Positions 991 to 24,316 of a DNA stretch of 24,746 nucleotides are shown piece after piece. The notes beneath the pieces were generated by a model. The model worked only from the letters and a program-made list of their open reading frames with translations, was not told the origin of the DNA and made no database searches. The DNA lies in IMG/VR virus record IMGVR_UViG_3300044568_000256, positions 1 to 24,746 of that record; one strand, given 5' to 3'. The translations under genes were made by a program, and so were the position numbers. The DNA is from a virus. The number at the start of each line of letters is the position of its first letter. Positions within the stretch are counted from its first letter, which is position 1.

Positions 991-1905
991 ATGGCAGCTC
1001 CAATGCGCAGTACCGACTTCCGGTCGATCGTTGAGCCAATCCTCAACGAGTGTTTCGACGGAGTCTATGACCAACGCTCTGATGAGTGGAGCCATGTGTT
1101 CCGCGAACAACAGGGTATCCCACGCAACTACCACGAAGAACCCGTCCTGTACGGCTTCGGCGCAGCTCCTCAGCTACCTGACGGCACTCCCGTCTCGTAT
1201 CAGCAGGGCGGCGTGCTGTTCCTCCAGCGCTATGTTTACAACGTGTACGGCTTAGCCTTCGCGTTGACCAAAGTGTTGGTTGAGGACGGCGATCACATCC
1301 GCATCGGTCAGGTCTATGCCAAGCACTTGGCACAGTCGCTGGTTGAAACGAAAGAACTGCTTGCAGCTAACGTGTTGAACCGTGCGTTCAACAGCAGCTA
1401 CACAGGCGGTGATGGCGTTCAATTGAGTTCTAACGCTCACCCGATCGTCAACGGCACATTCAGCAACTTGTTGAGCACAGCAGCTAACCTGTCGCAGACC
1501 TCGCTTGAGCAGATGCTCATTCAGGTTCGTCAGGCTGTGGACAACAACGGCAAGAAGATTCGTCTTCAGCCGCTGAAGCTGATCGTTGCTCCCGGCAACG
1601 TGTTCCAAGCCGAAGTTCTGTTGAAGTCGGTTCTCCGTACTGGCACAGCAAACAACGACATCAACCCAGTCAAGTCGATTGGTCTGATGCCTGAGGGTGC
1701 TGCTGTACTGAGCCGTCTGACTTCTGCCACCAACTGGTGGGTACAGACAGACGCTCCTGAAGGTCTGAAGTTGATGATGCGCCGTGGTCTGGAAAAGACT
1801 ATGGAAGGCGACTTCGAGACTGACTCGATGCGTTACAAAGCGACGGAGCGTTACACGATTTCGTGGACTGATCCTCGCGCAGTGTACGGCACGCCCGGCG
1901 TGTAA
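991..1905 (+). CDS. Major capsid protein (HK97-fold type, putative)
   Basis: A 304-aa protein, a normal length for an HK97-type major capsid subunit, which would build the icosahedral shell. It resembles the Mu gpT-like/environmental-phage capsid group. The N-terminal region has SDEWSHVFREQQ and YQQGG. The middle has a helical stretch ending in LAANVLNRAF (about 124-133). A LIVAPGNVFQAEVLLKSVL block (about 199-217) is followed by GTANNDINPVKS. The C-terminal part carries LMMRRGLEKTMEGDFETDS and ERYTISWTDPRAVYG. Start chosen at the ATG at 991, behind AGGGAGAC right after the upstream stop. A strong terminator follows the gene, fitting a highly expressed capsid transcript. Assignment rests on remembered family pattern, not a search. 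Confidence 0.85.
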   Translation: MAAPMRSTDFRSIVEPILNECFDGVYDQRSDEWSHVFREQQGIPRNYHEEPVLYGFGAAPQLPDGTPVSYQQGGVLFLQRYVYNVYGLAFALTKVLVEDGDHIRIGQVYAKHLAQSLVETKELLAANVLNRAFNSSYTGGDGVQLSSNAHPIVNGTFSNLLSTAANLSQTSLEQMLIQVRQAVDNNGKKIRLQPLKLIVAPGNVFQAEVLLKSVLRTGTANNDINPVKSIGLMPEGAAVLSRLTSATNWWVQTDAPEGLKLMMRRGLEKTMEGDFETDSMRYKATERYTISWTDPRAVYGTPGV

Positions 1906-6111: not shown

Positions 6112-7167
6112 ATGGCAGACGTTCGGATAACCGCGCTACCCACAGCACAAGCCATCACAGGCTCTGAGCTAGTTCCTGTCGTTCAGAACGGCTTGACGGT
6201 TCAGACGACCGTCTCCGCAATCACCTCAAGCCCGTCGCTTACGCAGACATTCTTAACCGTTGTGCAACAACCAACCCTGCCAAACAGTCGGTACTTCTCA
6301 ACTGGCGTAGGTCTTGGTATTACGGATGGCGGCGCTCAAGGCTCATACACAATTGCTTTTAACGGTACTGCGGCTTCACTAGAGTCTTCAGGGACAGGGT
6401 TTATTGCTAAGACAGCCGCTAACACTATTACGCCACGATCATTTGTCTCAAGTGGGGCAGGCGTATCTATTGCAAACGGCACAGGCATCTCTGGCGACCC
6501 AACGATTTCTTTGTCCGGTTTACCTCTTGCATTGGCAAACACGGTAGGTTCTGGGCTGTTGGCTGTTGGAGTAGGCCCAACATTAACGCCTGTAACCATC
6601 ACAGGCACGAGCAATCAAATCGATGTGACAGGTGGCGACGGTTCATCACCCCCGACTATCAGCATTTCGCCAAATCCGCAATTGTCTGGTACAGGCGCTG
6701 TAAGAGTACCGCTAGGCACTACGGCGCAACAACCTAGTGCCTTGTCAGGGAATTTTCGCCTTAATACTGACACGAACGTATTTGAGGGCTACAACAACAC
6801 GGGTTGGGTTTCTTTATTAAGCAATGCGTTGAACAACACCTCGATCAGCGGTGTAAAAACCATTACATTTAATGGTCAGGTCAATAATGCTGCAACATCA
6901 GGCGCAATAACGATTGACTGGACAACGGGTAATTATCAGCTACAAGCCGCACCATCAGGCACTATCACATACACATTTACAGCGCCAGTAGGCGTGTCGC
7001 ACTTGCAATTATTTGTTGCCCCCGCAGCTCTTGCTCAAATGATCATTTGGCCCGCAAACCTGTATTTTCTTGGTGCAACATGGAGCGGTACAAATAACAA
7101 AGCCGCTATCATTAATTTTTATTACGATGGCACGAATTACTACGCCATCGGCACAAATCAGGTGTAA
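6112..7167 (+). CDS. Tail fibre-like structural protein
   Basis: A 351-aa Ser/Thr/Gly/Asn-rich protein without membrane segments. The N-terminus (ITALPTAQAITGSELVPVVQ) follows a pattern common at the start of environmental phage fibre proteins, probably the virion-attachment end. The middle holds repeated motifs of the type G-[IS]-S-x-[DP]-P-T-I-S-[LI] near residues 122-133 and 175-184, typical of beta-helical fibre shafts. The C-terminal part (GNYQLQAAPSGTITYTF, LFVAPAALAQMIIWPAN, FYYDGTNYYAIG) resembles a generic fibre end domain. One nt separates it from the upstream gene. It opens the fibre cassette that continues to 13795. Receptor binding is possible but not shown. Confidence 0.6.
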   Translation: MADVRITALPTAQAITGSELVPVVQNGLTVQTTVSAITSSPSLTQTFLTVVQQPTLPNSRYFSTGVGLGITDGGAQGSYTIAFNGTAASLESSGTGFIAKTAANTITPRSFVSSGAGVSIANGTGISGDPTISLSGLPLALANTVGSGLLAVGVGPTLTPVTITGTSNQIDVTGGDGSSPPTISISPNPQLSGTGAVRVPLGTTAQQPSALSGNFRLNTDTNVFEGYNNTGWVSLLSNALNNTSISGVKTITFNGQVNNAATSGAITIDWTTGNYQLQAAPSGTITYTFTAPVGVSHLQLFVAPAALAQMIIWPANLYFLGATWSGTNNKAAIINFYYDGTNYYAIGTNQV

Positions 7168-7169
7168 CT

Positions 7170-7406
7170 ATGGTCACTCCAGTTATTGTTAGCGATCCGC
7201 CTATCATTACTGATAACGGATACATGTCAATTGACTTTGTTGCGTCTTATGAAGGCTATGTGTTGAAAGACGCTATCGTTGGCACACCAGAGTACATTGG
7301 CTCGTTGACTGCGGATGAGATCAACACGATTGAAGTTGACCGATTTAATGCTTGGTACACAATTGTCACCACGCCCGTGGAAGATGAACCAGTAGTCGAG
7401 GAATAA
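7170..7406 (+). CDS. Small acidic hypothetical protein
   Basis: A 78-aa acidic protein, 2 nt after one fibre gene and 2 nt before the giant fibre gene. AGGTG at 7160-7164 is a usable Shine-Dalgarno. The sequence has no signal peptide, membrane helix or Cys and ends in an acidic VEDEPVVEE tail. Small acidic proteins between fibre genes can be fibre chaperones, but I recognise no family and do not assign that role. Confidence 0.5.
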   Translation: MVTPVIVSDPPIITDNGYMSIDFVASYEGYVLKDAIVGTPEYIGSLTADEINTIEVDRFNAWYTIVTTPVEDEPVVEE

Positions 7407-7411
7407 TCGTG
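7397..7411 (+). promoter_or_regulatory. Ribosome binding site and GTG start of the giant fibre gene
   Basis: CGAGGA at 7397-7402 lies 6 nt before a GTG at 7409-7411. The next codons read A-D-R-Y-W, beginning the first WVGGTG module, which supports this GTG as the true start. Confidence 0.65.
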
Positions 7412-10400
7412 GCTGACCGTTACTGGGTAGGCGGAACAGGCAGTTGGGATGCAACCACTACAAACTGGTCTGCAACGAACGGAGGTGCGGGCGGCGCGTC
7501 TGTCCCCACGGCATCTGATGATGTTTTCTTTACTACGCTATCTAACGCCACGGCGTATGTTTGCACCTTAACGACAGCGCCTGTTTGCCGTAGCGTGTCA
7601 GTTGTAGGACCAGCGGTGGGTAACGTGACAATTGCGGGGACTGCTCTTTGGGGAATTTACGGTTCTTTTACTCTTGCTGCAACAGGTGTTACTTATACAC
7701 ATTCAGGAACAATAACTTTAAATTCTGCTTCCGCTGGTAATATTATTACAACAAATGGTGTTGTTATAACATCCCCATTAAATATAAATTTCACTGGTGG
7801 AACTTGGGAGTTAGGAAGTGCATATACTTCAAACACCGGAGTAACAATTAACGGAACTTTTACAACTAATAATTTTAATTTTACTGTTAGCGGCGGTAAT
7901 TTTAATAGTAATAGTTCTAACACTAGGACATTAAATTTAGGTTCATCGACAATTACTTGCCTTAATTGGAATTTAAGCGGTTCAACCAACTTAACTGTTA
8001 ATGCTGGAACATCGACAATTACAGTGACATCAGCTGCAGGCGCATTTACTGGCAATGGGCAAACGTACTACAACGTCACCAAAGCTACCAACGGTTTTGC
8101 TATTAGTGATGGCGGAAATACGTTTAATGCGTTAACAATGAGTACGATTACAATAGCCGCCACTTTTGGCTGTTCGTTTGCTGGTAATCAAACTATTGGA
8201 ACATTGACCATCAATGGTGCAGGTACTGCTAACGGTAGAGCAAGTATACAAACGCCAACTACGTTAGCGGGTACACAAGTTACGCTGACCGTGGCATCGT
8301 TTGTAACCAATGGTTTTGTTGATTTCCGTGATATCAACTTACAAGGCGCAGCCTCGCCATTAACCGTAGCAACAGGCGGTGATGCAGGTAACAATACCAA
8401 CATTACATTGCAAGCTCCTAGAACTGTTTATTGGAATTTAGTAGCTGGTGGCAACTGGACGGCAACCGCTTGGGCGGCTACTTCTGGTGGCGCAGTTGCT
8501 AATGCTAATTACCCTTTACCACAAGACACAATAATTATTGAAGACACAGGATTAAACTCAGGCGCAACAATTACACTCAATACCAGCCCAAATATTGGCA
8601 CACTTAATATGTCCAGCCGGACATTGCCAATGACGCTTGCTTCTGGCTCAGTAAACCCGCTTATTTACGGTGATTTAACTTTATCCTCTGCTGTTACAAC
8701 TACATCAACAGGCTCTACTTGGGCATTTTCAGGATTTAACAAGACGCAGACAATTACATCTGCGGGGGTAACGGTTGCGTTTAACGTAAATATTAACGGG
8801 TCATTAACAACAGTTACGCTTGCAGATGCGCTTACTATTACAAGCGCAACAGGTAATGCGGTTGTTGTAACAAAAGGCACACTTAACCTAGCCAACAACA
8901 CCCTGACTTGTTTTGGGGTTAACACTAACAACAGCAATACCCGTGCGATTGCATTTGGCACAGGTCAAATAAATCTGACAGGTAACGCATCAACCATTTG
9001 GACATTTAATACCGCAACAAATTTAACGATTACTGGCTCTGCAACTGTCAACGCAACATACTCTGGTAGCACCGGAACAAGAGGCTTCGGCGGCTACGGT
9101 AGTGGCACAGCGTTAATCAATCTTAACGTCACAGCAGGCTCAGACATTATAAATATGCCAAATGCTGGCTATAACAACGTCAACTTTACAGGGTTTACAG
9201 GGCAACTTTTAATCCAATCAACGTCAATTTTTGGAAATTTAACGCTTAACACGGGGATGACTACTGCTTATACATCTGGTGTTTTGTTTTTTTACGCTAC
9301 ATCAGGCACGCAGTTAATCACTACAAACGGCGTAACAGTAGATGCACCAGTGACATTTTCTGGTGTTGGCGGCACATTCCAATTGCAAGACAATTTAACT
9401 CTTGGTTCAACACGGGCGTTAACTTTAACTGCAGGCACGCTTAATTTAAATGCTAGAACTTTAACTAGCGGCACATTTTCATCAACAGGCGCAGTCGTTA
9501 GGTCAATTGCATTTAACGGTGGCACATACGCTTGCGCTGGTGCAACCTTTACCCCATCAGGAACAAACTTTAGCACCACGGGTTCAGGCACAATCAGTAT
9601 GACCAGCGCATCAAGTAAGACATTTAATGGCGGTGGTTATTCATTCCCAACACTTAACCAAGGCGGTGCGGGTGCGCTTGTTATCACAGGTGCAAACACA
9701 TTTGCGGGTATAACCAATACCGTTCAGCCAGCAACAATTACATTTCCTGCATCAACCACAACGACTGTAAGTAATTTCAATGTGAATGGTACGGCAGGTA
9801 ACTTAATTACACTTAACTCCAGCGCTTCAGGCACAGCAGCAACAGTAAATTACGCAGGCACTGGAACCGTCTTTGCAAATTATTTAAGCATTCGAGATTT
9901 TACGGCTACGTCTTCACCACGCTGGCAGGCTAATACCGCTACAACAACAATAGTCAGCAATGTCACGGGTTGGATTGTGACTAACTTTTATTATTGGGTT
10001 GGCGGAACGGGTAACTGGGACGCAACAAACACGCGCTGGGCGGCTACCTCTGGCGGGGCTGGTGGTGCTGGTGTACCAACTCTTTCTGATAACGTATTCT
10101 TTGATAGCGCATCAAACGCTACAGCCTATGTCTGCACATTAACAACCACACCTGTTTGCGCCAGCGTAAATATTGCCGGACCTGCATCGGGTAACGTCAC
10201 GATTGCGGGGACTGCGGCTTGGAGCATATATGGCAGCATGACTATTGCAGCCACGGGTGTAACCAATACCTACACAGGCAATATTACTTTTGCCGCCACA
10301 ACAACAGGCTGGACAGTCACAACAAACGGTATTACTTTAAGCGGAATTAGTGTTTTTAGCGGGGTGGGTGGTGGTTGGACTCTTGGTAGTGCTTTAACTA

Positions 10401-12613
10401 GTACAAACGGATTTCAACTTCGCAATGGTACGCTGACAACAAACAATTTTAATATGACTACGGGCAATAACTTTGATATAACGGGTGCAAACGCTCGAAC
10501 ATTAAATCTTGGCTCGTCCACTATTACTTGTCAATTTTGGGGAGGACTTGCTGCAACTAATTTAACAGTAAACGCAGGTACATCAACCATCACATTGACA
10601 GGTAGTGCTACATTTGCGGGTGCTGGGCTGACTTATTACAACGTCACAAAAGCTAACAACGGATTTTCTATTCTTGATAGCGGCAACACGTTTAATGCAT
10701 TGACTAATACTACTTGCACTAGCGGCGGTGCTTTTCCTTGCACTTTTGCTGGCAATCAAACTATCGGCACATTAACTATTAACGGTGGCGTAAATCAACC
10801 TTCAAGAGCAAGCATACAAACACCTAGCACACTAGTTGGTACTCAAGTTACTTTGACTGTTGCGTCTTTTGTTACCAATGGCTATGTTGATTTTCGTGAT
10901 ATTAACTTACAAGGCGCAGCCTCGCCATTAACAGTAGCGACAGGTGGCGATTGTGGCAACAACACCAATATTACATTGCAAGCTCCCCAAACGGTTTATT
11001 GGAGTTTGGCTGCGGGCGGCAATTGGGGAAACAATGGCGCATGGGCATTGACTTCAGGTGGCGTTCCCCCCGGCACTGTTTATCCGCTTCCGCAAGATAC
11101 CGTAATTATTGATAACGCAGCGTTAAATTCTGGCGCAACACTTACCATGAACATAAGTCCAAACGTGGGGACAATTAATATGTCTTCACGGACATTGCCA
11201 ATGACGCTTGCTGTAAGCAGTTCAGCAGCAAATATTTATGGCGATTTAACTTTATCATCTGCGGTTACAACCACCTCAACAACAGGTTCGTTTACGTTTT
11301 CAGGTTTTAACAAAACGCAAACAATTACTTCTGCGGGTACAACAGTTGCTTTTGGTGTGACTATCAACGGTCGGCTAACAACTGTTGCGCTTTCTGGTGC
11401 GTTGTCATTTCCTAGCACCGTAACAACTACATTGACGCTTGGTACGCTTAACCTAGCCAATAACATCCTGACTTGCGGGGCATTTAGCTCTAGCAATACT
11501 AACGTCCGTTCAATTACTTTTGGCACAGGTCAGATTAACTTGACAGGTAATGCTGGAACAATTTGGAACTCAGATGTAGGTACAAATCTTACATATACAG
11601 GTTCACCAAATATTTATTGCACATATTCTGGAAGCACAGGCACTCGTTCAATTCAAGGTAGCACTACCGCAACCGCAACAGAAACAAACGTATTTAACTT
11701 TTTTGTAACGGCGGGAACAGATACCGTTTCCGTTTTAGGCGCAAGACGTTACCGAACATTAGATTTCACAGGGTTTTCAGGAACGTTTGGAACGTGGGTA
11801 ACAAGCCTTGCTATTTACGGCAATTTTGTTGCTTCAAGCACAATGACATTAAGCGCAAATGCTGTTGCGCTTTCGTTTGTTAGCACCCTCGCTCAACAAA
11901 ATATCACATCAAACGGAAAAACATTTGATTTTCCCGTTGCTGTAAACGGAACAAATACTGTTCAACTGGAAGACAATTTAACTCTTGGTTCAACACGGGC
12001 GTTAACTTTAACTACAGGCACGCTTAACCTAAACGCCAAAACTGTAACTAGTAACACATTTTCGTCCACTGGCGCAGGTGTCAGGTCAATTGCCTTTAAC
12101 GGTGGCACAATGGCTGTGTCAGGCGCAACTTACACCGTGTCAGGCTCAAACCTGACTACCAGCGGCGCAGGTGTAATCAGCATGACCTCTGCCTCGTCTA
12201 AAACATTTGCAGGTGGTAGTTTCTCGTATCCAACGCTTAACCAAGGTGGAGCAGGTACGCTAGTGATTACGGGTGCGAACACATTCCAGAACATGACTAA
12301 CACGGTTCAGCCTTGCACGATTACATTCCCTGCATCTACGACTACTACGGTTGGCAACTTTAATGTGAACGGCACTGCGGGGAATTTAGTAACGCTTAAC
12401 TCCAGCACACCCGCTACTCAGGCTACATTATCTAGAATAGGCGGCGGTGCGGTTAGCGTTAATTATTTAAGTATTCGAGATTCAAATGCCACGCCGTCAT
12501 TGACTTGGTACGCAGGAACAACATCCACGAATGTAAGCAATAATACTGGATGGATTTTTACTAATGCACCAGCCACGGCGATAAACGGATTGTTTTTCGG
12601 CGTACCGTTTTAG
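7409..12613 (+). CDS. Giant tandem-duplicated beta-solenoid-like fibre/adhesin protein
   Basis: A 1734-aa protein of extreme Thr/Ser/Asn/Gly content, with no signal peptide and no membrane segment. It consists of two tandem halves of about 857-860 residues (5-861 and 862-1720), then a short tail ending GLFFGVPF. Each half starts with YWVGGTG(S/N)WDA and contains a second, weaker copy of the same YW-x-x-GG-NW...PLPQD module, at tryptophans 6, 342, 863 and 1198. The pattern (G-x-W...W-x-x-x-x-GG...P...D) resembles motifs of autotransporter-type beta-solenoid repeats. Shorter units such as TLNL-x-x-x-T(I/L)T recur throughout. A C-x7-C pair (VCTLTTAPVC) is conserved in both halves. Parts, especially 7690-8010, are much more AT-rich than the capsid genes, hinting at separate ancestry. 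Probably a long virion fibre or host-contacting protein. This is inferred from position and composition. Confidence 0.65.
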   Translation: MADRYWVGGTGSWDATTTNWSATNGGAGGASVPTASDDVFFTTLSNATAYVCTLTTAPVCRSVSVVGPAVGNVTIAGTALWGIYGSFTLAATGVTYTHSGTITLNSASAGNIITTNGVVITSPLNINFTGGTWELGSAYTSNTGVTINGTFTTNNFNFTVSGGNFNSNSSNTRTLNLGSSTITCLNWNLSGSTNLTVNAGTSTITVTSAAGAFTGNGQTYYNVTKATNGFAISDGGNTFNALTMSTITIAATFGCSFAGNQTIGTLTINGAGTANGRASIQTPTTLAGTQVTLTVASFVTNGFVDFRDINLQGAASPLTVATGGDAGNNTNITLQAPRTVYWNLVAGGNWTATAWAATSGGAVANANYPLPQDTIIIEDTGLNSGATITLNTSPNIGTLNMSSRTLPMTLASGSVNPLIYGDLTLSSAVTTTSTGSTWAFSGFNKTQTITSAGVTVAFNVNINGSLTTVTLADALTITSATGNAVVVTKGTLNLANNTLTCFGVNTNNSNTRAIAFGTGQINLTGNASTIWTFNTATNLTITGSATVNATYSGSTGTRGFGGYGSGTALINLNVTAGSDIINMPNAGYNNVNFTGFTGQLLIQSTSIFGNLTLNTGMTTAYTSGVLFFYATSGTQLITTNGVTVDAPVTFSGVGGTFQLQDNLTLGSTRALTLTAGTLNLNARTLTSGTFSSTGAVVRSIAFNGGTYACAGATFTPSGTNFSTTGSGTISMTSASSKTFNGGGYSFPTLNQGGAGALVITGANTFAGITNTVQPATITFPASTTTTVSNFNVNGTAGNLITLNSSASGTAATVNYAGTGTVFANYLSIRDFTATSSPRWQANTATTTIVSNVTGWIVTNFYYWVGGTGNWDATNTRWAATSGGAGGAGVPTLSDNVFFDSASNATAYVCTLTTTPVCASVNIAGPASGNVTIAGTAAWSIYGSMTIAATGVTNTYTGNITFAATTTGWTVTTNGITLSGISVFSGVGGGWTLGSALTSTNGFQLRNGTLTTNNFNMTTGNNFDITGANARTLNLGSSTITCQFWGGLAATNLTVNAGTSTITLTGSATFAGAGLTYYNVTKANNGFSILDSGNTFNALTNTTCTSGGAFPCTFAGNQTIGTLTINGGVNQPSRASIQTPSTLVGTQVTLTVASFVTNGYVDFRDINLQGAASPLTVATGGDCGNNTNITLQAPQTVYWSLAAGGNWGNNGAWALTSGGVPPGTVYPLPQDTVIIDNAALNSGATLTMNISPNVGTINMSSRTLPMTLAVSSSAANIYGDLTLSSAVTTTSTTGSFTFSGFNKTQTITSAGTTVAFGVTINGRLTTVALSGALSFPSTVTTTLTLGTLNLANNILTCGAFSSSNTNVRSITFGTGQINLTGNAGTIWNSDVGTNLTYTGSPNIYCTYSGSTGTRSIQGSTTATATETNVFNFFVTAGTDTVSVLGARRYRTLDFTGFSGTFGTWVTSLAIYGNFVASSTMTLSANAVALSFVSTLAQQNITSNGKTFDFPVAVNGTNTVQLEDNLTLGSTRALTLTTGTLNLNAKTVTSNTFSSTGAGVRSIAFNGGTMAVSGATYTVSGSNLTTSGAGVISMTSASSKTFAGGSFSYPTLNQGGAGTLVITGANTFQNMTNTVQPCTITFPASTTTTVGNFNVNGTAGNLVTLNSSTPATQATLSRIGGGAVSVNYLSIRDSNATPSLTWYAGTTSTNVSNNTGWIFTNAPATAINGLFFGVPF
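7421..9991 (+). repeat. First copy of the ~2.57-kb intragenic tandem repeat
   Basis: Aligned by the YWVGGTG motif, copy 1 starts at the Tyr codon at 7421. Copy 2 starts at 9992, an offset of 2571 nt (857 codons). The offset drifts between 856 and 861 codons along the repeat because of small in-frame indels. Confidence 0.8.
9992..12568 (+). repeat. Second copy of the ~2.57-kb intragenic tandem repeat
   Basis: Copy 2 of the fibre half. DNA identity to copy 1 is patchy. Identical blocks include 29 nt (8336-8364 and 10904-10932) and 44 nt (9387-9430 and 11970-12013), inside strongly diverged sequence. It ends with GWIFTN, matching GWIVTN at the end of copy 1. Confidence 0.8.
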
Positions 12614-12628
12614 AAATTAAGGAAAAAC

Positions 12629-13795
12629 ATGGCTCAGAGCGGATTTACCCCAATTAAACTTTACCTCTCCACGACTGCGGCGGCTGTTCCGACAGCACCG
12701 AACTTGGCTCCGGGTGAGTTAGCGCTGAATAACAACGACGGCAAGCTCTTCTACGAAGACAGCGCAGGAGTTGTACAAGTCCTTGCTACAAAGGCAGCAA
12801 CAAGCGGCGCGTTCACTACCCTGAGTGTTACGGGCGTAACGACTGTTTCCGCAGGCTCTGCCGCGCTCCCTGCCATTGTGTCAACCACAGGCACAGCCGA
12901 CACCGGATTTTGGTTTCCTGCTGTTGATACGGTTGCTGCTAGTACAGGTGGCACAGAGCGGATGCGTATTACTAGCACTGGCGGTGTTTTTCTTGGCGGC
13001 AATACAGCATTAACCAATATTAACTTGAATGTTGGAAAAACCTTAACAGGCGGCGCAAACGCTTTTGGAGTTATTTCAAATGGTCAAATTCAAATTGATG
13101 TAACTGGAATTGCACAATACTTTAACGCAGGGGGAAATCAAATAGTTGGAACAACAACTTCCCAGCTTAGGTATTACGGTGCTACACAAGGCACGATTAG
13201 CGGCACGGTAACTAGTCAATTTGGTTTTTATGCTGACGCAACTCTCATAGGCGCAACCAACAACTACGGCTTTTACGGCAACATAGCCGCCGCTACAGGT
13301 CGCTATAATTTTTACGCCAATGGTACGGCTGATAATGTCTTTGTTGGGACAACATCATTAGGTGGAGCGGTAGGCTCAGAGGCTTTAAGAGCATCGCCTG
13401 TAGGTAGTTCAGTGAACTACATGTTAGTTCAGGGTGGTACGGCTGGTAATGGACCTACATTCACATCGCAAGGTTCTGATACAAATATTTACATGAACTT
13501 TGTTGCCAAAGGTACTGGCGCATTTGAATTTAAAAGTAGTGGTGTAAGGCAATTTGCTATTGGGAGTGTTCCTTCGGCTGTTAATTTTGTTATTACTTAC
13601 GGCTCAATAACAGGAAATAACGCGCTTATAACCGCAGATGGCTCAGATACAAACATTGGCATTACGCTTGCTCCAAAAGGTACAGGAAACGTATCATTTG
13701 GTACATTCACATCCAGTGCTGATGTTCCCGTCACAGGCTACATCACTATTAAAGATCAAGCAGGAAACGTCCGTAAATTAGCAGTTATCGCTTAG
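12629..13795 (+). CDS. Tail fibre-like protein
   Basis: A 388-aa protein. The N-terminus carries LSTTAAAVPTAPNLAPGELA followed by NDGKLFYEDSAGVVQVL, an N-terminal unit common to phage fibres that I take as the virion-attachment end. A GTADTGFWFPAVDTVA... ERMRITSTGGVFLGG segment (about 90-130) is a recurrent fibre module. A related version (GDINTGLYQPATDQVAF) ends the protein at 16959. The C-terminal half has repeated SDTNI...(V/L)A(P)KGTG units (about 287-303 and 342-358), consistent with a beta-structured shaft, and it ends ITIKDQAGNVRKLAVIA. The Shine-Dalgarno is AAGGA at 12619-12623. Host recognition is plausible but unproven. Confidence 0.65.
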   Translation: MAQSGFTPIKLYLSTTAAAVPTAPNLAPGELALNNNDGKLFYEDSAGVVQVLATKAATSGAFTTLSVTGVTTVSAGSAALPAIVSTTGTADTGFWFPAVDTVAASTGGTERMRITSTGGVFLGGNTALTNINLNVGKTLTGGANAFGVISNGQIQIDVTGIAQYFNAGGNQIVGTTTSQLRYYGATQGTISGTVTSQFGFYADATLIGATNNYGFYGNIAAATGRYNFYANGTADNVFVGTTSLGGAVGSEALRASPVGSSVNYMLVQGGTAGNGPTFTSQGSDTNIYMNFVAKGTGAFEFKSSGVRQFAIGSVPSAVNFVITYGSITGNNALITADGSDTNIGITLAPKGTGNVSFGTFTSSADVPVTGYITIKDQAGNVRKLAVIA

Positions 13796-16258: not shown

Positions 16259-16324
16259 ATGGCTGACAAAGCGCTTTGGGATAAAACGCACTCAACATCA
16301 CATATTCTGTGGGTGTCGCCATGA
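16259..16324 (+). CDS. 21-aa mini-ORF translationally coupled to the adaptor gene (putative)
   Basis: AGAGGG at 16249-16254 sits at correct spacing before ATG 16259. The ORF encodes MADKALWDKTHSTSHILWVSP and its TGA overlaps the ATG of the next gene (ATGA at 16321-16324). No comparably strong Shine-Dalgarno precedes 16321, so translating this leader probably delivers ribosomes to the adaptor gene. It may be a functional microprotein, a leader peptide, or the truncated remnant of a longer gene. I recognise no homolog. Confidence 0.4.
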   Translation: MADKALWDKTHSTSHILWVSP

Positions 16325-16950
16325 CCGCAAGCTTTGTTTTAACCTACGACAGCCTAGTATCAGCGATTGAGCAATATCTTGAGCGCAATGACGCCGCTGT
16401 CGTCGATCAGATTCCTACATTTATCACGCTCGCTGAGTTTGAAATTGCTCAGCAGATCAAGACTTTAGGGCAGATTGAGGTCGCCCAAGGCACGATGGAT
16501 GTTGGCAATCCGATCATCCAAAAGCCCGCCCGTTGGCGCAAGACTGTATCGATGTCGGTCACTTCAGGTGGCGAAAAGACGCCAGTGTTCTTGCGCAAGT
16601 ACGAGTACCTGACGAACTACAACGCCGAGAGTCCAAACGGATTGCCGCTGTATTACGGCGACTACGACTACGACAATTGGTATGTGGCTCCTATCCCTGA
16701 TCAGGCATACACATTTGAGGTGTTGGTTTACCAGCGTCTCCAGCCGCTATCGTCCACGAACCAAACAAATTGGATCACGAATAACGCCCCTAATGCGATG
16801 CTCTTCGGGGCATTGCTTCAGGCGGTGATCTATCTTAAAGATGACGCTCGTCAGATATTTCAACAAAAGTACGACATGGCAATGCAAGCGCTCAAGGCAG
16901 AGGATGTTACTCGCGTGGGTGATCGTTCAGCCGTTGCCGTGGACTCCTAG
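16321..16950 (+). CDS. Head-tail adaptor-like protein
   Basis: A 209-aa protein. The N-terminal part (TYDSLVSAIEQYLERNDAAV, IPTFITLAEFEIAQQIK) fits the helical start of short-tail-phage adaptor proteins (SU10/P22 gp4-like). It is followed by a strand region (ARWRKTVSMSV, YGDYDYDNWYVAPIPDQAY, FEVLVYQRL) and a C-terminal helix pair (NAMLFGALLQAVIYLKDDAR, YDMAMQAL) with an acidic/Val tail. In podovirus-like phages this ring joins the portal to the nozzle, and a nozzle-like gene lies 1.2 kb downstream. ATG 16321 is preferred over an in-frame GTG at 16309 because of the ATGA coupling with the mini-ORF. It does not share obvious sequence with the 4698 adaptor-like protein, so the two may be different tail rings. 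Confidence 0.6.
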   Translation: MTASFVLTYDSLVSAIEQYLERNDAAVVDQIPTFITLAEFEIAQQIKTLGQIEVAQGTMDVGNPIIQKPARWRKTVSMSVTSGGEKTPVFLRKYEYLTNYNAESPNGLPLYYGDYDYDNWYVAPIPDQAYTFEVLVYQRLQPLSSTNQTNWITNNAPNAMLFGALLQAVIYLKDDARQIFQQKYDMAMQALKAEDVTRVGDRSAVAVDS

Positions 16951-16958
16951 AGGCAACC

Positions 16959-18191
16959 ATGACAAATTCATATGTCAACCCCATCACTGGTCAAACAATC
17001 AACCCGTCACAGGTTGGTTATGAAGAGCTGACGATTTCAGCAAATACGGCGCTGGACTGGCCCATCAACGGGACGGTGAATGCAGATGTTGTAGCATCAA
17101 TCATCCAAGTCACAGCGACTGTGGCGTCGCTTGAGCTGTCGTTACCGTCGGCGTTGCAGGTCAGTACAGGTCAAAGCGTATTGATCCAGAACATCGGCTC
17201 TAATTCCTTTACAGTCACTGACATCTCTGGCAACACGATCGCATCGATTGCCTCTGGTGTTGCTGAGTACATCTTCCTGACTGATAACTCCACGAACAAT
17301 GGCACTTGGTCTACAGTTACATTTGGCGCAGGTACATCATCCGCTAACGCTTCGGCGCTGGCAGGTTTTGGATTAATTGCAAGCGGAACCACACTGAATC
17401 AGCAATACGCTGAGAGTTCGGTGCTTTCAAATACATCTCTTTCTGCATCAAGCCGAGCACAATTTTTAGTTTGGTCATCTGGTGTTGGTGCGATTACGCT
17501 TCCTGTATCCACTTCGGTAGGCAACGGGTGGTTTGTGATGATTCGTAACGGCGGGTCAGGTATTTTGACATTGACTCCAAGCGGAACCGACACGGTTGAT
17601 GGAAACGCTACACAGCAATTGCAATTGACAGAGTCTCTTGTGGTTGTTTCCAACGGTATCAATGGTTACAGCACATTTGCTTATGGTCGCAGCAATACAT
17701 TTGCTTATACGCAGCTTGCAAAAACGGTATCTACAGGCACTTACACGCTGAGCGCTGTTGAGTATGCGAATGTTGTGCAAACATATGTTGGCGCATTGAC
17801 GGGCAATGTCATTATTGTTTTGCCATCTACAGTACAGCTATATTATCTGAACAATCAAACATCTGGCACATTCTCTTTAACATTTCAAACGAGTGCAGTT
17901 AGTGGTGGTACTGTCAGCGTACCTACGGGTCAAACGCTTATGGTTGTATGTGACGGTACGAATGTGTATAACGCATCGTCTGCGGCAGGAGGCACGCTCT
18001 CTAACCTTGCGATTACGCTTGCGCCGGGTTCCGCCGCATCTCCTGCCTTGAACTTCACAGGAGATATAAACACAGGCTTATATCAGCCAGCTACTGATCA
18101 AGTGGCTTTTTCTCTAAACGGTTCAAATGCATTGACTCTCACTACCTCTGGGTTATTTGTGCCAACAGGAATTTCAGGGGGAACATTCTGA
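16959..18191 (+). CDS. Fibre-like virion structural protein
   Basis: A 410-aa Ser/Thr/Gly-rich protein with no TM. The N-terminus contains VNPITGQTINPSQVGYEELT, then VTATVASLELSLPSALQVSTG and a VLIQNIGSNSFTVTD...GTWSTVTFGAGTS block. I recall this start in many environmental phage structural proteins encoded next to adaptor and nozzle genes. Similar strand-turn blocks recur at about 170-215 and 265-335 (GGTVSVPTGQTLMVVCDGTN). The C-terminal ~50 residues (SPALNFTGDINTGLYQPATD, FSLNGSNALTLTTSG) are a variant of a module in the fibre protein at 12629. AGAGG just before ATG 16959 is a good Shine-Dalgarno. A tail-tip or appendage role is likely, but the receptor is unknown. Confidence 0.6.
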   Translation: MTNSYVNPITGQTINPSQVGYEELTISANTALDWPINGTVNADVVASIIQVTATVASLELSLPSALQVSTGQSVLIQNIGSNSFTVTDISGNTIASIASGVAEYIFLTDNSTNNGTWSTVTFGAGTSSANASALAGFGLIASGTTLNQQYAESSVLSNTSLSASSRAQFLVWSSGVGAITLPVSTSVGNGWFVMIRNGGSGILTLTPSGTDTVDGNATQQLQLTESLVVVSNGINGYSTFAYGRSNTFAYTQLAKTVSTGTYTLSAVEYANVVQTYVGALTGNVIIVLPSTVQLYYLNNQTSGTFSLTFQTSAVSGGTVSVPTGQTLMVVCDGTNVYNASSAAGGTLSNLAITLAPGSAASPALNFTGDINTGLYQPATDQVAFSLNGSNALTLTTSGLFVPTGISGGTF

Positions 18192-18192
18192 T

Positions 18193-20217
18193 ATGACAGT
18201 CAAAGTCATCAGTCTGAATATCAAGCCGGGCGTACAGCGCGACGGCACTCAATTTGATTCGCCGATCTATGTAGACGGCAGATGGGTGCGTTTTCAGCGC
18301 GGTCGTCCCCGTAAGATGGGCGGATATAAGGGCATATTTCAGAATGCTTCTGGAATTAGCCGTGGGATGATTTTAAACTCAGAGGACGGTCTGAACTATG
18401 TCTATTCGGGCTGGAGTGATGGTCTTGAGGAATGGGTAACTGATGACGATGACGGCGTTGGATCAGGACCGACCAACATTGAATTTTCTGGGGCTATTTT
18501 AACAATACCTACTTTGGTGGGTGGTAGTGCATACACAAACGGTACTTATTCTGGTGTTTCACTAACTGGAGGGTCAGGCTCTGGTGCTATTGCAGATATT
18601 ACAGTTGCTGGCGCTATCGTTACCGTGGTGACTTTGGTTTCAGGTGGTATTGGTTACTTGTCTGGTGATGTACTAAGTGCTCCTGCGGCAAGCATTGGCG
18701 GCACTGGCACTGGATTTTCTGTTACCGTTGCCACTGTTGCTTCAAGTTTTACTGCCAACGCAAATAATCTCTGGCAATTTGATATTGGTTTTGACTCTGG
18801 TGGCTCTGGCAATCAGACGATTGTGGCGCACCCCGGTCTCAACCTCACGCACATTGATAACACGATCAATACACCTGTACTGATCGGTGACTTCCCCACT
18901 GGGGCGATGAGCCAAGTAGGTGTGTTTACAGCCGCTGGCACGATGGTGGTGGGACCGCCGAGCGTGTTTACCATCAACTCCATCAATGCCTTGATCGCTA
19001 TCGGTCAGACAGTGACAGGTACAGGCATCCCAGCGAATACCACGGTTTCAATTGTGCTTATTGGCGCTTCGACAACGACCGTGACGCTGTCAAATACAGC
19101 CTCGACAGCGGGCGTATTGACGCTCACTTTCAACAACAACATCAGCGTATCGGGTGGGTGCGTGATGTTGCATCCGTACCTGTTTGTGTACGGCAACAAC
19201 GGATTGATCAAGAACAGCTCGGCTGGCAATTTCCAAGACTGGGTATCAGCCGACGCAAACGAGAACACGGTGTCAGCAGGAAAGATCGTCAAAGGTCTTC
19301 CTGTGCGAGGCGGTACGACATCGCCATCTGGATTGTTTTGGTCGCTTGATTCAGTGATCCGTGTGAGTTATGCCCCCACAACGATCGGCGCAAGCACGAT
19401 CTATTGGCGTTATGACATCGTAACGAGCCAGAGTTCAATCCTGTCATCATCGAGCGTGATTGAATATGACGGATTATTCTTTTGGTGTGGCGTGGATCGA
19501 TTCTTGATGTACAACGGTGTTGTGAGTGAGGTCGCAAACAACACAAACATCAATTACTTTTTTGATAATTTAAACTACGCACAGCGTCAAAAAGTATGGG
19601 CAACCAAGATTCCTCGTTGGGGTGAGATTTGGTGGTTCTATCCTCGTGGCAATGCCACTGAGTGTACAGATGCGATTATTTACAATGTGCGTGACAAGAT
19701 TTGGTACGACGCTGGTGAAGCGTTAGGTGCTCGTCGCTCTGCTGGTACATTCTCTGAGGTGTTCCGAAAGCCAATTTGGGCTGGCAGCGAAGAGAATGAA
19801 TCTGGTACTTACACTTTGTGGCAACATGAATCTGGCACAAATCTTGTGAACCTGAGCGAACAGAGCGCCATTCAGAGCTATTTTGAGACGGACAGTCTGG
19901 GCTGGGTGAATGGTGGACCGAATCAGAATGAACCTGTTGGTATGAATAACTGGATCAGGCTTGAGCGTGTTGAACCCGACTTTGTGCAATCTGGCGACAT
20001 GAATCTATATGTCACGGGTAAGGGCTATGCGTCAGATGTTGATGTGGTGACGGGACCGTATGTCTTCTCTCCAACTACATTGAAGATTGACTTGCGTGAG
20101 CAGCGTCGTGAGATGCGCTTAAAGTTCGAGAGCAATATCGTCAACGGCAACTACGAGTGTGGTCTGAACCTTCTCTCTGCGGATGTCGGCGATGTACGAA
20201 GCACAGGAAATCCATAA
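18193..20217 (+). CDS. Tail nozzle / P22 gp10-like stabilisation protein with inserted modules
   Basis: A 674-aa protein. The N-terminus (LNIKPGVQRDGTQFDSPIYV, DGRWVRFQRGRPRKMGGY) matches the start of podovirus nozzle/P22 gp10-type DNA-stabilisation proteins as I know them. Those form a beta-propeller ring that closes the short tail. The C-terminal two thirds (HPYLFVYGNNGLIKNSS, VRGGTTSPSGLFWSLDSVIR, WRYDIVTSQSSILS, EYDGLFFWCGVDRFLMYNG, WGEIWWFYPRGNATECTDAI) show the expected repeating Trp/Tyr-rich blades. Two low-complexity beta modules appear inserted, at about 96-184 (YTNGTYSGVSLTGGSGSG and IGYLSGDVLS...IGGTGTGF) and about 243-313 (IGQTVTGTGIPANTT). ATG 18193 is preferred over GTG 18157 because it follows the upstream TGA by 1 nt and begins the conserved core. 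Confidence 0.7.
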   Translation: MTVKVISLNIKPGVQRDGTQFDSPIYVDGRWVRFQRGRPRKMGGYKGIFQNASGISRGMILNSEDGLNYVYSGWSDGLEEWVTDDDDGVGSGPTNIEFSGAILTIPTLVGGSAYTNGTYSGVSLTGGSGSGAIADITVAGAIVTVVTLVSGGIGYLSGDVLSAPAASIGGTGTGFSVTVATVASSFTANANNLWQFDIGFDSGGSGNQTIVAHPGLNLTHIDNTINTPVLIGDFPTGAMSQVGVFTAAGTMVVGPPSVFTINSINALIAIGQTVTGTGIPANTTVSIVLIGASTTTVTLSNTASTAGVLTLTFNNNISVSGGCVMLHPYLFVYGNNGLIKNSSAGNFQDWVSADANENTVSAGKIVKGLPVRGGTTSPSGLFWSLDSVIRVSYAPTTIGASTIYWRYDIVTSQSSILSSSSVIEYDGLFFWCGVDRFLMYNGVVSEVANNTNINYFFDNLNYAQRQKVWATKIPRWGEIWWFYPRGNATECTDAIIYNVRDKIWYDAGEALGARRSAGTFSEVFRKPIWAGSEENESGTYTLWQHESGTNLVNLSEQSAIQSYFETDSLGWVNGGPNQNEPVGMNNWIRLERVEPDFVQSGDMNLYVTGKGYASDVDVVTGPYVFSPTTLKIDLREQRREMRLKFESNIVNGNYECGLNLLSADVGDVRSTGNP

Positions 20218-20450
20218 TGACAACCTACGATCCCAGAGGGCATACTTGGAACTCATGGTGCGCATTGATGGCTGAGTTGTTTGCCATTCAGGAACTAGGT
20301 ACATTGCCTGAGGATCGCTGGAAGGAGTGGGGCGATGCGATGGCTGGCATTGGTTACTTTATGAGTTCTGGTGTGCCTGATACACGCACATTTGACAGAT
20401 GGGAAGACTGGGCGACATCGCTCGTCGGCGTTATGGATATAGAGCCATGA
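20217..20450 (+). CDS. Small Trp-rich acidic protein after the nozzle gene
   Basis: A 77-aa protein starting at an ATG that overlaps the nozzle stop by 1 nt (TAATG). Its sequence has repeated aromatic/acidic elements: YDPRGHTWNSWCALMAELFA, LPEDRWKEWGDAM, FDRWEDWATSLVG. The D-R-W-x-x-W repeat suggests a helical protein with two or three similar helices. I recall similar small proteins directly after the nozzle gene in environmental phages, function unknown. Its TGA overlaps the next ATG (ATGA, 20447-20450). A chaperone or tail-assembly role would fit the position but is not shown. Confidence 0.65.
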   Translation: MTTYDPRGHTWNSWCALMAELFAIQELGTLPEDRWKEWGDAMAGIGYFMSSGVPDTRTFDRWEDWATSLVGVMDIEP

Positions 20451-23400
20451 GCGGAGATAGCGGGTACGAGGGTGAGTTTGATCAAGCCTCTTCAGATGCT
20501 GCCGACTTGCGCCATGCACAATGGATGGCTGGTAGAGGCGACACTAGTTTTTTGGAAAAAATACAGGCATCGGCTCCTGCCGTTGATCCTATTACTAATC
20601 CAACTGCGCTAACGACTACTGCCGCCCCACTTGCTCCTGCCTCCCCACTTACTCCTAATGACCCTGCATACACTCCATTTAATCTAGACCAGTATGGATA
20701 CAACACAGACAAAGAGACTGAGTATTACAACGCAGCCAAGCTTGCTAATTGGCAGATGTCGCAAGGCAGACCTGAGATGGCGCAGCAGTACATTGAGCGA
20801 GCCAATGCACTTAAAACGCAATTAGATTCACCGTACCGTATTGACACAATAAGTAGTGGTGGCGGCGGCGATGCTGGACAGGGTCCAGTAGAAACGATGA
20901 TCGTAGGTAAAGACGGTAATACTATTCGTAATTTACAGGTAGGCGATGACGGAACATTTAATTCCGTTCTTAGCATGGGTGGGGATTCAGGAGCGAACTA
21001 CGGTGGTGGTTCGTTTAAATTAGAAGACATCATCAAGCAATCAGAATCAGAAAAGAATGTTGCGTTCGGCGCAGGCAGAGGTCAAGCGGCTGGATACGCT
21101 TACGAATTAAAGAATGAAGACGGTGAGCCATATCAACGCTACGACGCCAATGGCAACTTGACTGAGTTTTTGAACCGCATCACGGGTGAATGGACAAAAG
21201 CTAGTGATGTTAAGCCTATTGGGACGGTGTTTGACCCAGTGCAAGGCAAGATGGTCACGCAGTACCAGTACGGCGATAACAAATTCACATCCGAACTTGG
21301 TTCTGCTGGAAGCACATATGCTCCTATTATGGACCCGTACAGTAAGGATACTGGCGGCTTCATGGGCGAGGGCGGCTGGGCAAAGGCTGGTGCGCTGGTT
21401 GCTGCTGGTCTGACGGCTGGTCTCGCAAGCGGTGCGTTAGTGCCAGCATCTATGGCGGCGGCAGCCCCCGGCTCGGCTGCCGCGATCGGTTTAACCGCCG
21501 CAAAGGGCGCACTGACAGGCATAGCGGTGTCTGGCATTCAAGGTGCAACACCTTCCGAGATGCTCAAGGCGGGTCTTTTGGGCGGTGTAGGCGCGGGATT
21601 GGGTGGTTTTGTAGGTGCAGCCGATCTTGGTACTGTAGGAAACATCGCTGCAAAGGCTGGTATTCAGACGGGTCTGACGGCGATTGCGGGCGGTAATATA
21701 CAGAACGCACTTATCTCCTCGCTCATCAACAGCACACTTCCTGTTGTCCTAAATGAGGCACTGCCAGCAGATACCGCAAGCTTTATCGCTGACCTGCCCA
21801 AGCCAATTCAAACGCTCATCATGAGCACCGCAGGCAGCGTCCTGAATGCTGGATTTAATGGGCAAGACATATCTAGTGCGGCAGTAAACGGTGTCACCAA
21901 CGGCATCATCAGCCTTGGTAAAGATTTTGCCAAAGGCGCATTTAATAGCTTGTCAGAGTCAGAGCTTGCTCAAACAATAAGGAACTACCTCAATCCAAGC
22001 TATGAAGAGTTTCAAGAAATACCCTATGACGCAGATGCGGCATTAGACAATGTTATCCGCAACCTGCCTATACAAACACCGGCGTCGGGTACAACAGCCA
22101 GTGTGTCTAATCCGTACTCCGTAGAAAACATTATGGCAAACCTCGAAGCGGGTTATCAAAACGCTCCGAGCACAACAGGTCTTCCACAGTACGCAAGCGC
22201 TACTACAAGAGATGTAATAAACCCACTTAGTTATGGTGGTGATCGTTATGGGGCGGCAGACACGGAAAGCCCCGGTGGTGGGGATTTGAGCCTACAAGAA
22301 GATGAGCCACCTGCTACCGCATATTTAAAAAACGCATATCGGCAAGACGAAGAAACATTACAGGCTTATAACCAAGTCCGTGCAGAAAATGGTTTGCCTC
22401 CTTCAACAATAGACGACGCTGATTTTCTTAATGCAATTAACAGAATTAACGACAGGCTATTTGCTCAGCAAAATATAAGCAATAGCACCGCTGACACAAC
22501 CCCCCGCACAGAAACATATAACCCCAATGCCCCACTTGAGTCACCGTTTCAGCCACGGCTTCCAGCGAGCGAATATGACCCTGCAATCAAGGCGCTTGAG
22601 GACGCAGGTTTAGAGGTCTCTTACAAGACATTAGATCAGTTCACTCAAGACCCCGGATCGCTTGTTGATAGGGTGTATCCTGTCTTGGCGGGGCGTCAGC
22701 CAACAGAGCAAGAGCGCATTGATTTTATAGATCAGTATTCAAATAGCGCTACAGCGTCTCCACAAGACTTGATAAAAAACATCTACGACAAAGTACAGCT
22801 AGACAAGCAATTAACTGTTTATCTTGATCAGTCAACATCCACCGCGCCTCCTACGCCAGTTCCTCCATTGACCGCAATAGCCGATCCTGAAAAAGTCGAT
22901 CCTGACAAAGCGCCAAAGGTAAATGCGCCAAAGGGCGGAAGCGGTACACAAGGCGGCTCTTTGGCTGGTGATCAAGGTCGAGTCGGTGAAGCTAGTGCTT
23001 TGGCTTCATCTATTGATTCATCCGTCGAGGAACAGAAGTCTCAAGCCATTTTGAGCGAGGCTAAAAGCCTAGTGTCCTTGGCGGTAGAGTCTGGGTTAAT
23101 CGATCCAGCCGATATCCCGACCGTAACATTTAATCTCACAAAGAGTTCAAATATCCTTGGCATCTCGCCATCCGAAGCCATACAGCAAGAATTGGTTCAA
23201 GACGACGGCAGGCTGAGTGATAAAGGCGTTGATGTGGTAGCAAAAGCTACCGGATTGACCGCAATGGAAGTTATAACTTTTGAGCGGGGATTAAACACAT
23301 CGAAAGTTACAGACGATGCACAAGGGTCAAGCACGATTGAGCAAGGTTCTGGATCATCCTTAAAAGGTGAAGGATTGGGCGGAGCCAAAGGAACTGGCAC

Positions 23401-24316
23401 GGGTATTTCTGGCGACCAAGGTTTGGGTGGATCATTTGGATCGAATATTGGTGGAACGGGAACGGGTGTAGGCACTGGCGTGGGTAGCGGAGAGGGCAGT
23501 GGGACAGGGAAACTTCCATCCTTACCGTCTTCGTCTGGCAGGTCTATGCTGTTACTCGGTGGACTGAATCCCGGAGCGCTTCCGGGAAGTTTAGAAGGTA
23601 CATATTTAAAAGGTGCAGATGTGGAATCTTACGATCCGTTTGAAAATTACAATGTCTATCAGCAAATAGCCCCCGTGCGTGCGGCTCAGGGCGGAAGCCC
23701 CCTACAGCTTGCTCAATTACAGCAGGGTATTTATGGCGTCGATCCACGGCAATACAGCGTGATCCAGAATCGACCAGCGCCGAGTTACTTTACTTACGGC
23801 ACGGACACATCGCAGAATGCCCCCGCTGTTTTTGCGGGTAGTCAACTAATGAGTAAGCCTCGACCAAGCATTCCAGTCACGCCGACAGGAAATATCGGAG
23901 CAAACGATTGGATGTACGGATCAGCAGGATCGAACCAGCTTTCGCCAGCAGGTGCAGCGATCCCAGCACTGCCTTCTGGAATGATGGCAAACGGCGGCAT
24001 GGCACACGGCGGTATGGACGAGGATGAGCACGTCCCTGAGTTCATCACTGGATTGACTGGTCATTATGTCAAGGGTCGTGGTGATGGTCAGTCAGATGAC
24101 ATCCCTGCGATGCTGGCAGATGGCGAGTATGTTTTTGACGCAGAAACGGTGGCTCAATTAGGCAATGGATCAAGTGACGCAGGAGCTGAGGTTCTTGATA
24201 AAATGCGTGAATCGATAAGGCGTCATAAGCGATCCGCCCCAATAGATGAAATACCCCCAAAATCTAAATCTCCGCTTGAGTATCTTGCAGAGGCTACTAA
24301 AGGCAAAAGGACATAA
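20447..24316 (+). CDS. Large putative internal/ejection-type virion protein
   Basis: A 1289-aa multi-segment protein. Residues about 1-130 are hydrophilic and helix-rich. About 130-310 include Gly-rich and DGEPYQRYDANGNLTEF-type beta sequence. About 311-441 form a long Ala/Gly hydrophobic region (VAAGLTAGLASGALVPAS) that could insert into or cross membranes. About 441-960 is mainly polar and helical. About 967-1023 is a Gly-rich linker. The C-terminal ~90 residues contain GRGDGQSDDIPAMLADGEYV and VAQLGNGSSDAGAEVLDKM, a motif resembling the C-terminal end of tape-measure-type proteins. Size, order after the nozzle gene and the hydrophobic region suggest a DNA-ejection/internal virion protein. 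This is inference. ATG 20447, overlapping the previous stop (ATGA), is preferred over the in-frame upstream start at 20399. Confidence 0.6.
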   Translation: MSGDSGYEGEFDQASSDAADLRHAQWMAGRGDTSFLEKIQASAPAVDPITNPTALTTTAAPLAPASPLTPNDPAYTPFNLDQYGYNTDKETEYYNAAKLANWQMSQGRPEMAQQYIERANALKTQLDSPYRIDTISSGGGGDAGQGPVETMIVGKDGNTIRNLQVGDDGTFNSVLSMGGDSGANYGGGSFKLEDIIKQSESEKNVAFGAGRGQAAGYAYELKNEDGEPYQRYDANGNLTEFLNRITGEWTKASDVKPIGTVFDPVQGKMVTQYQYGDNKFTSELGSAGSTYAPIMDPYSKDTGGFMGEGGWAKAGALVAAGLTAGLASGALVPASMAAAAPGSAAAIGLTAAKGALTGIAVSGIQGATPSEMLKAGLLGGVGAGLGGFVGAADLGTVGNIAAKAGIQTGLTAIAGGNIQNALISSLINSTLPVVLNEALPADTASFIADLPKPIQTLIMSTAGSVLNAGFNGQDISSAAVNGVTNGIISLGKDFAKGAFNSLSESELAQTIRNYLNPSYEEFQEIPYDADAALDNVIRNLPIQTPASGTTASVSNPYSVENIMANLEAGYQNAPSTTGLPQYASATTRDVINPLSYGGDRYGAADTESPGGGDLSLQEDEPPATAYLKNAYRQDEETLQAYNQVRAENGLPPSTIDDADFLNAINRINDRLFAQQNISNSTADTTPRTETYNPNAPLESPFQPRLPASEYDPAIKALEDAGLEVSYKTLDQFTQDPGSLVDRVYPVLAGRQPTEQERIDFIDQYSNSATASPQDLIKNIYDKVQLDKQLTVYLDQSTSTAPPTPVPPLTAIADPEKVDPDKAPKVNAPKGGSGTQGGSLAGDQGRVGEASALASSIDSSVEEQKSQAILSEAKSLVSLAVESGLIDPADIPTVTFNLTKSSNILGISPSEAIQQELVQDDGRLSDKGVDVVAKATGLTAMEVITFERGLNTSKVTDDAQGSSTIEQGSGSSLKGEGLGGAKGTGTGISGDQGLGGSFGSNIGGTGTGVGTGVGSGEGSGTGKLPSLPSSSGRSMLLLGGLNPGALPGSLEGTYLKGADVESYDPFENYNVYQQIAPVRAAQGGSPLQLAQLQQGIYGVDPRQYSVIQNRPAPSYFTYGTDTSQNAPAVFAGSQLMSKPRPSIPVTPTGNIGANDWMYGSAGSNQLSPAGAAIPALPSGMMANGGMAHGGMDEDEHVPEFITGLTGHYVKGRGDGQSDDIPAMLADGEYVFDAETVAQLGNGSSDAGAEVLDKMRESIRRHKRSAPIDEIPPKSKSPLEYLAEATKGKRT

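Follow-up and report, generated by a model that had tools for sequence, protein, structure and literature searches.

A doubled, beta-solenoid-like candidate phage fibre and its near-obligate small companion gene

The stretch of DNA analysed here (the window) is an IMG/VR virus record of 24,746 bases, in which a large open reading frame, the W-fibre gene, occupies positions 7409..12613 on the plus strand. It begins with a GTG start and encodes a protein of 1734 aa made of two tandem units. A small gene for an acidic protein of 78 aa (7170..7406, plus strand) lies just upstream, 2 nt from the start of the fibre gene, and this pair sits between two genes of the fibre locus, gene 1 (6112..7167, plus strand; start MADVRITALPTAQAITGSELVP...) and gene 2 (12629..13795, plus strand; start MAQSGFTPIKLYLSTTAAAVP...). 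The N-termini of both are conserved in relatives, and gene 2 has a weak match to a tail fibre PHROG. The same strand carries a major capsid protein gene (Phage_capsid_4 / Mu gpT-like; 991..1905), which we used as the anchor for finding close relatives, and a gene for an SU10-type adaptor protein (16309..16950). Further downstream, the product of 18157-20217 (686 aa) matches PHROG virion structural protein 3287, and in that of 20399-24316 (1305 aa) a tape-measure PHROG matches just a short piece close to the end; the two are possibly a tail nozzle and an internal virion protein. The original prediction of a short-tailed phage is plausible for the window, given its SU10-type adaptor, but short tails are not a trait of the family, as the isolate Limnohabitans phage DC31, which carries a related fibre, has a 203-nm tail (PMC12195039).

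The predicted reading frame and its two tandem halves of about 857 aa (residues 1-857 and 858-1734) were borne out by self-alignment. Residues 5-856 align with residues 862-1716 with 559 of 846 aligned residues identical (66%), and the alignment score of 2742 compares with 334 for the best of 50 composition-preserving shuffles. The tryptophans at positions 6, 342, 863 and 1198 (each part of a YW pair, at 5/6, 341/342, 862/863 and 1197/1198) and the offset of 857 residues (2571 nt) had also been given correctly, and the second half does repeat the first end to end save for a short tail (12557..12610, plus strand), which we found to be about 18 residues long instead of about 15. At the DNA level the halves are 75.6% identical in a global alignment and 68-75% identical in local pieces, and their longest exact match is 44 nt. 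Since between a quarter and a third of their bases differ, the repeat is old and the doubling is not an assembly artefact, while the shortness of the longest identical tract rules out a recent duplication or strong ongoing gene conversion.

Both halves open with a YWVGGTG unit (A) and go on to a longer VYW unit (B). Sub-unit A1 covers residues 5-340 (7421..8428; first residues YWVGGTG), B1 residues 341-857 (8429..9979; first residues YWNLVAGG, with a C-cap motif TGWIV at the end), A2 residues 862-1196 (9992..10996) and B2 residues 1197-1716 (10997..12556; C-cap LTWYAGTTSTNVSNNTGWIF), all on the plus strand. Comparisons of A with B scored 5-10 SD above 200 shuffles, whether the W motif was removed or not, and a profile-profile comparison gave a probability of 100% (E 1.2e-41, 303 columns), so that this inner level of repetition, weaker than the outer duplication, is nevertheless real. 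However, the A sub-units (about 336 aa) and the B sub-units (about 520 aa) are unequal in length, and the proposed 2 x 2 hierarchy is thus an A-B-A-B order, not a set of four equal quarters. The composition of the protein is extreme, with 20% Thr, 12% Gly and 10% Asn and only about 2% acidic (D 1.9%, E 0.2%) and about 2% basic residues. A hydrophobicity scan for a coil period showed no clear peak.

An AlphaFold2 model of half 1, built on a 36-sequence alignment of the window and locus proteins, had a mean pLDDT of 91.2 and a pTM of 0.78 and consisted almost only of strands. The model of residues 700-1734, which comprises half 2 and the junction, was somewhat less confident (pLDDT 86.7, pTM 0.69). 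At an offset of 158 its strands match those of half 1 (for example 38-41, 50-54, 62-65, 73-77 and 124-135), and this coincidence points to one predicted fold for both halves; neither of the outcomes that had been named as telling against the prediction, an absent self-repeat signal or unrelated folds of the halves, was thus observed. Confidence in the second model fell below 50 at the junction (residues 836-857; 9914..9979, plus strand) and in the last 13 residues (1722-1734). Since the first model is confident at the junction, the low values in the second may come from the alignment.

When the two models were compared with the PDB by Foldseek, nothing was found below E 0.06, and the weak top neighbours were autotransporter passengers, the tailspike CBA120 TSP1, an antifreeze beta-helix and the S-layer protein RsaA. 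The autotransporter passengers (Hbp, EspP, EspC) and CBA120 TSP1, the nearest solved folds, are beta-helices, but they matched at E 0.07 or worse with a TM-score of about 0.15 and no sequence relation was found; a sequence search of the fibre against solved structures likewise gave no homologue at E up to 1. Against predicted viral proteins, Foldseek gave ten matches at E <0.001, mainly to uncharacterised proteins from uncultured Caudovirales phages. The autotransporter-type beta-solenoid of the original prediction therefore stands in part: the predicted fold is all-beta and solenoid-like, but no autotransporter or PATR model matched and the PDB search was not significant. From the strand pattern, the confident model and the weak neighbours, we consider "beta-solenoid-like" a reasonable reading of the model and not an established membership.

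The fibre matched no family among the Pfam, NCBIfam and PHROG models. This holds for the autotransporter beta-barrel translocator domain (Pfam at E up to 1; NCBIfam), for the PATR beta-strand repeat (Pfam at E up to 1) and for known fibre domains (S74, fibre PHROG). The window protein does carry the signature of what we call the W-fibre family, a YWVGGTG-W-W-GG-P-D start with a small ORF directly upstream, and alignment searches confirmed at least 560 stretches of this family in viral contigs, besides 116 matching stretches in contigs of prokaryotic genomes, mostly Bacteroidota assemblies. None of 36 viral members scanned matched a PHROG, and the members scanned were also free of Pfam and NCBIfam matches, so that a family carried by hundreds of virus contigs is invisible to routine annotation. 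Within the literature searched, we found no paper that deals with the YWVGG motif or with solenoid fibres in duplicate. Of the closest complete relatives, about half have two YWVGG units and measure 1480-2080 residues, which makes the window protein a double of typical size. The expectation that a doubled protein of 1734 aa would be an unusual appendage was thus not upheld; the doubled form is ordinary within a widespread, unnamed family.

Some relatives already bear names. Two BFVD entries from uncultured Caudovirales phages belong to the same family, A0A6J7X413 with 40% identity and a matching predicted structure (E 3e-47) and A0A6J5T8W4, annotated "Parallel beta-helix repeat", with 29% identity and a structure match at E 2e-31; the names of these homologues mention neither the partner gene nor the duplication. 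The "PE family protein" of Methylophilaceae phage P19250A has a homologous start (43% over 122 aa), and its gene adjoins those of a host specificity protein J and a tail fibre. Unlike the window protein, it has 925 aa and a Gly-rich second half, and no partner gene was found.

The protein encoded by the small gene upstream of the fibre has 15 acidic but only 2 basic residues. It belongs, though distantly, to a family whose pattern is KIDFEF..DALHLPDDH..EI.AMK.QR.DNW. With the window and L004 left out of the profile, a partner ORF was found in front of 60 of the 64 fibre genes tested, including those of DC31 and L232, with a spacing of -8 to +3 nt in nearly all loci. The reverse search, starting from a single small-gene member as query (an alignment query gave only 10 loci), placed a fibre within 120 nt in 81 of 88 loci; six of the remaining seven have a fibre within about 600 nt, and the last contig ends 580 nt on, with no match up to that point. 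As these loci were picked by similarity, they form a biased sample, and some contigs appear in both directions. Within INPHARED the small gene occurs only in DC31, which is also a fibre carrier. The small gene is thus a near-obligate companion of the fibre, and the pairing is very strong in both directions. The family has no good PHROG match, and five of 21 members match DUF2673 weakly. In L254, L255, L015 and L020 a gene for a small hydrophobic protein (MFSEQ.IVVF.TLLLTAFN) is found between the partner gene and the fibre.

The pair seems to be accessory to the phages that carry it. Among 80 contigs whose capsid protein is 88-98% identical to that of the window, many of them incomplete, the fibre locus has gene 1, then gene 2, then variable genes. 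Only one (L232) carries a W-fibre, placed after gene 2, and about 30 show genes 1 and 2 with no W-fibre between them. A contig with a capsid identity of 87% (L051) also carries a W-fibre, further down the locus, while L074 has a double of a different subtype, the DC31 type, at the same place as the window pair. Because the pair is mostly absent from close relatives and varies in position, it behaves as an accessory, exchangeable module. Inside the fibre loci of L173, L191, L199 and L212 lie ORFs of about 200-240 aa whose starts are GIY-YIG-like; they may be homing endonucleases.

The DC31 double resembles that of the window in its two W-units, its C-caps and its partner gene directly upstream, but it has an A-B-B-A-B build, a frame of 1740 codons and a YYGS-repeat tail, belongs to another clade and comes from a long-tailed phage. 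The genome is given as circular (PMC12195039), and the ends of its record (PQ492658.1) split the fibre gene into positions 1-2626 and 74983-76209, with an overlap of 127 bases. As the record ends inside the gene, the annotation covers no more than the C-terminal 400 residues, as a hypothetical protein. In a tree of 99 A units from the window fibre and its relatives, both window A units group with L004, L005, L006 and L016 (support 100/100), of which L004, L005 and L016 are complete single-unit proteins, while the A units of DC31-type doubles, first and second alike, sit in other clades, away from them. The nesting of the window A units among single-unit proteins indicates that the window doubling was separate from that of the DC31 type.

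The doubling need not have been a duplication within one gene. A fusion or recombination of two diverged homologues, for example from co-infecting phages, is an origin to which we give a little under even odds and which is compatible with the function proposed below. Indeed, window A2 is closer to L006 (76%) than to A1 (69%), and in a tree of whole halves the two window halves do not group together, their sister grouping being near rejection (AU p 0.057). However, this grouping is not rejected at the 5% level by the whole halves, nor by the A units (AU p 0.48) or the B units (AU p 0.13), and L006 is incomplete and may itself be a double.

Phage fibres are components of the virion and are usually trimers, and the elongated, beta-rich fold expected of them is present in the predicted models. 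We propose, with a probability of roughly 0.6, that the window protein is a non-enzymatic, nearly uncharged, beta-solenoid-like rod that serves as an accessory host-contact fibre of the virion and is made with a dedicated small acidic protein. Its gene context would place the rod on the virion: the fibre gene has neighbours, both in the window and in relatives, that encode fibre, adaptor, portal and further virion proteins. That it binds the host surface is what we infer for such a rod. A capsid-side location, as a head decoration or another fibre of the head, appears unlikely. It would suit DC31, where the double gene is followed by genes of 264, 405 and 131 aa up to the capsid gene, with no annotated tail genes, but in the window and its relatives the fibre gene lies among tail-type fibre genes.

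We consider it rather improbable that the phage makes the protein during infection as a surface or secreted adhesin, or as a matrix protein, and not as a part of the virion. The model for such a role would be the giant proteins secreted by the T9SS in Bacteroidota, which share the YWVGG units, often several per protein, but are cellular and have a signal-like sequence at the N-terminus and a T9SS sorting domain (TIGR04183 or TIGR04131) at the end, the latter in all five Bacteroidota relatives tested. In contrast, the window protein starts with MADRYWVGGTGSWDATTTN (MADRYWVGG), where no hydrophobic stretch or signal peptide is visible by eye, the NCBIfam models found no C-terminal T9SS sorting domain in it, and its gene sits inside a fibre locus among virion genes. 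A tailspike acting enzymatically on host polysaccharide is very improbable. Tailspikes with a parallel beta-helix do appear in the list of weak fold matches, but these are scattered over unrelated helices, Pfam gave no enzyme domain for the fibre at E up to 1, and acidic residues are scarce.

For the host-contact fibre that we favour, the best reading of the pair is a transferable two-gene module, an adhesive fibre with its own adaptor or assembly chaperone. A small acidic protein would fit either role for a huge Thr/Asn-rich rod, and the spacing of -8 to +3 nt suggests that the two could be made by coupled translation. The W-rich beginning of each unit may cap the rod, the C-terminal tails may be exchangeable end pieces, and a doubling of units would lengthen the rod and could thereby add reach or avidity. 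On a broader scale, we see about an even chance that the family represents an undescribed, widespread two-gene appendage system, mainly of aquatic phages: a modular solenoid adhesin, with T9SS surface proteins of Bacteroidota as cellular relatives, strictly paired with its own small acidic adaptor or chaperone. In such a system the two genes would travel together from one fibre locus to another, and the adhesin would have been extended repeatedly through duplicated units and swapped tails. Since the pair is exchanged among fibre loci, it may affect which cells these phages can attach to. The module and its exchange are, in our view, a more valuable result than the duplication, and the near-obligate pairing provides both a two-gene signature for finding the family and an adaptor or chaperone hypothesis that is testable in the isolate DC31.

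The C-terminal tails of the relatives are of few kinds, namely aromatic ends (GNFLMFF), to which the FFGVPF end of the window protein is comparable, IYYGS repeats, W-IND-Q-P-W repeats, SSNTWLRQ ends and SETATGTD repeats. A fibre gene split at one place recurs among double-type relatives. In about 16 of them (L048, L049, L050, L064, L065, L066, L070, L071, L078, L079, L081, L084, L085, L086, L088 and L092) the end of the fibre ORF falls exactly at the C-cap (...ITGVRAY or ...RAYPL), where an overlapping stop-start (CTATGACTTGG or TACTGATGAGCGACTGG; for example L049:10945 and L065:2756) opens a second ORF. This second ORF encodes what is left of the cap (WYAGNNSTNNGS[LF]GW) together with a tail of short repeats, the same sequence that is fused to the fibre in other relatives.
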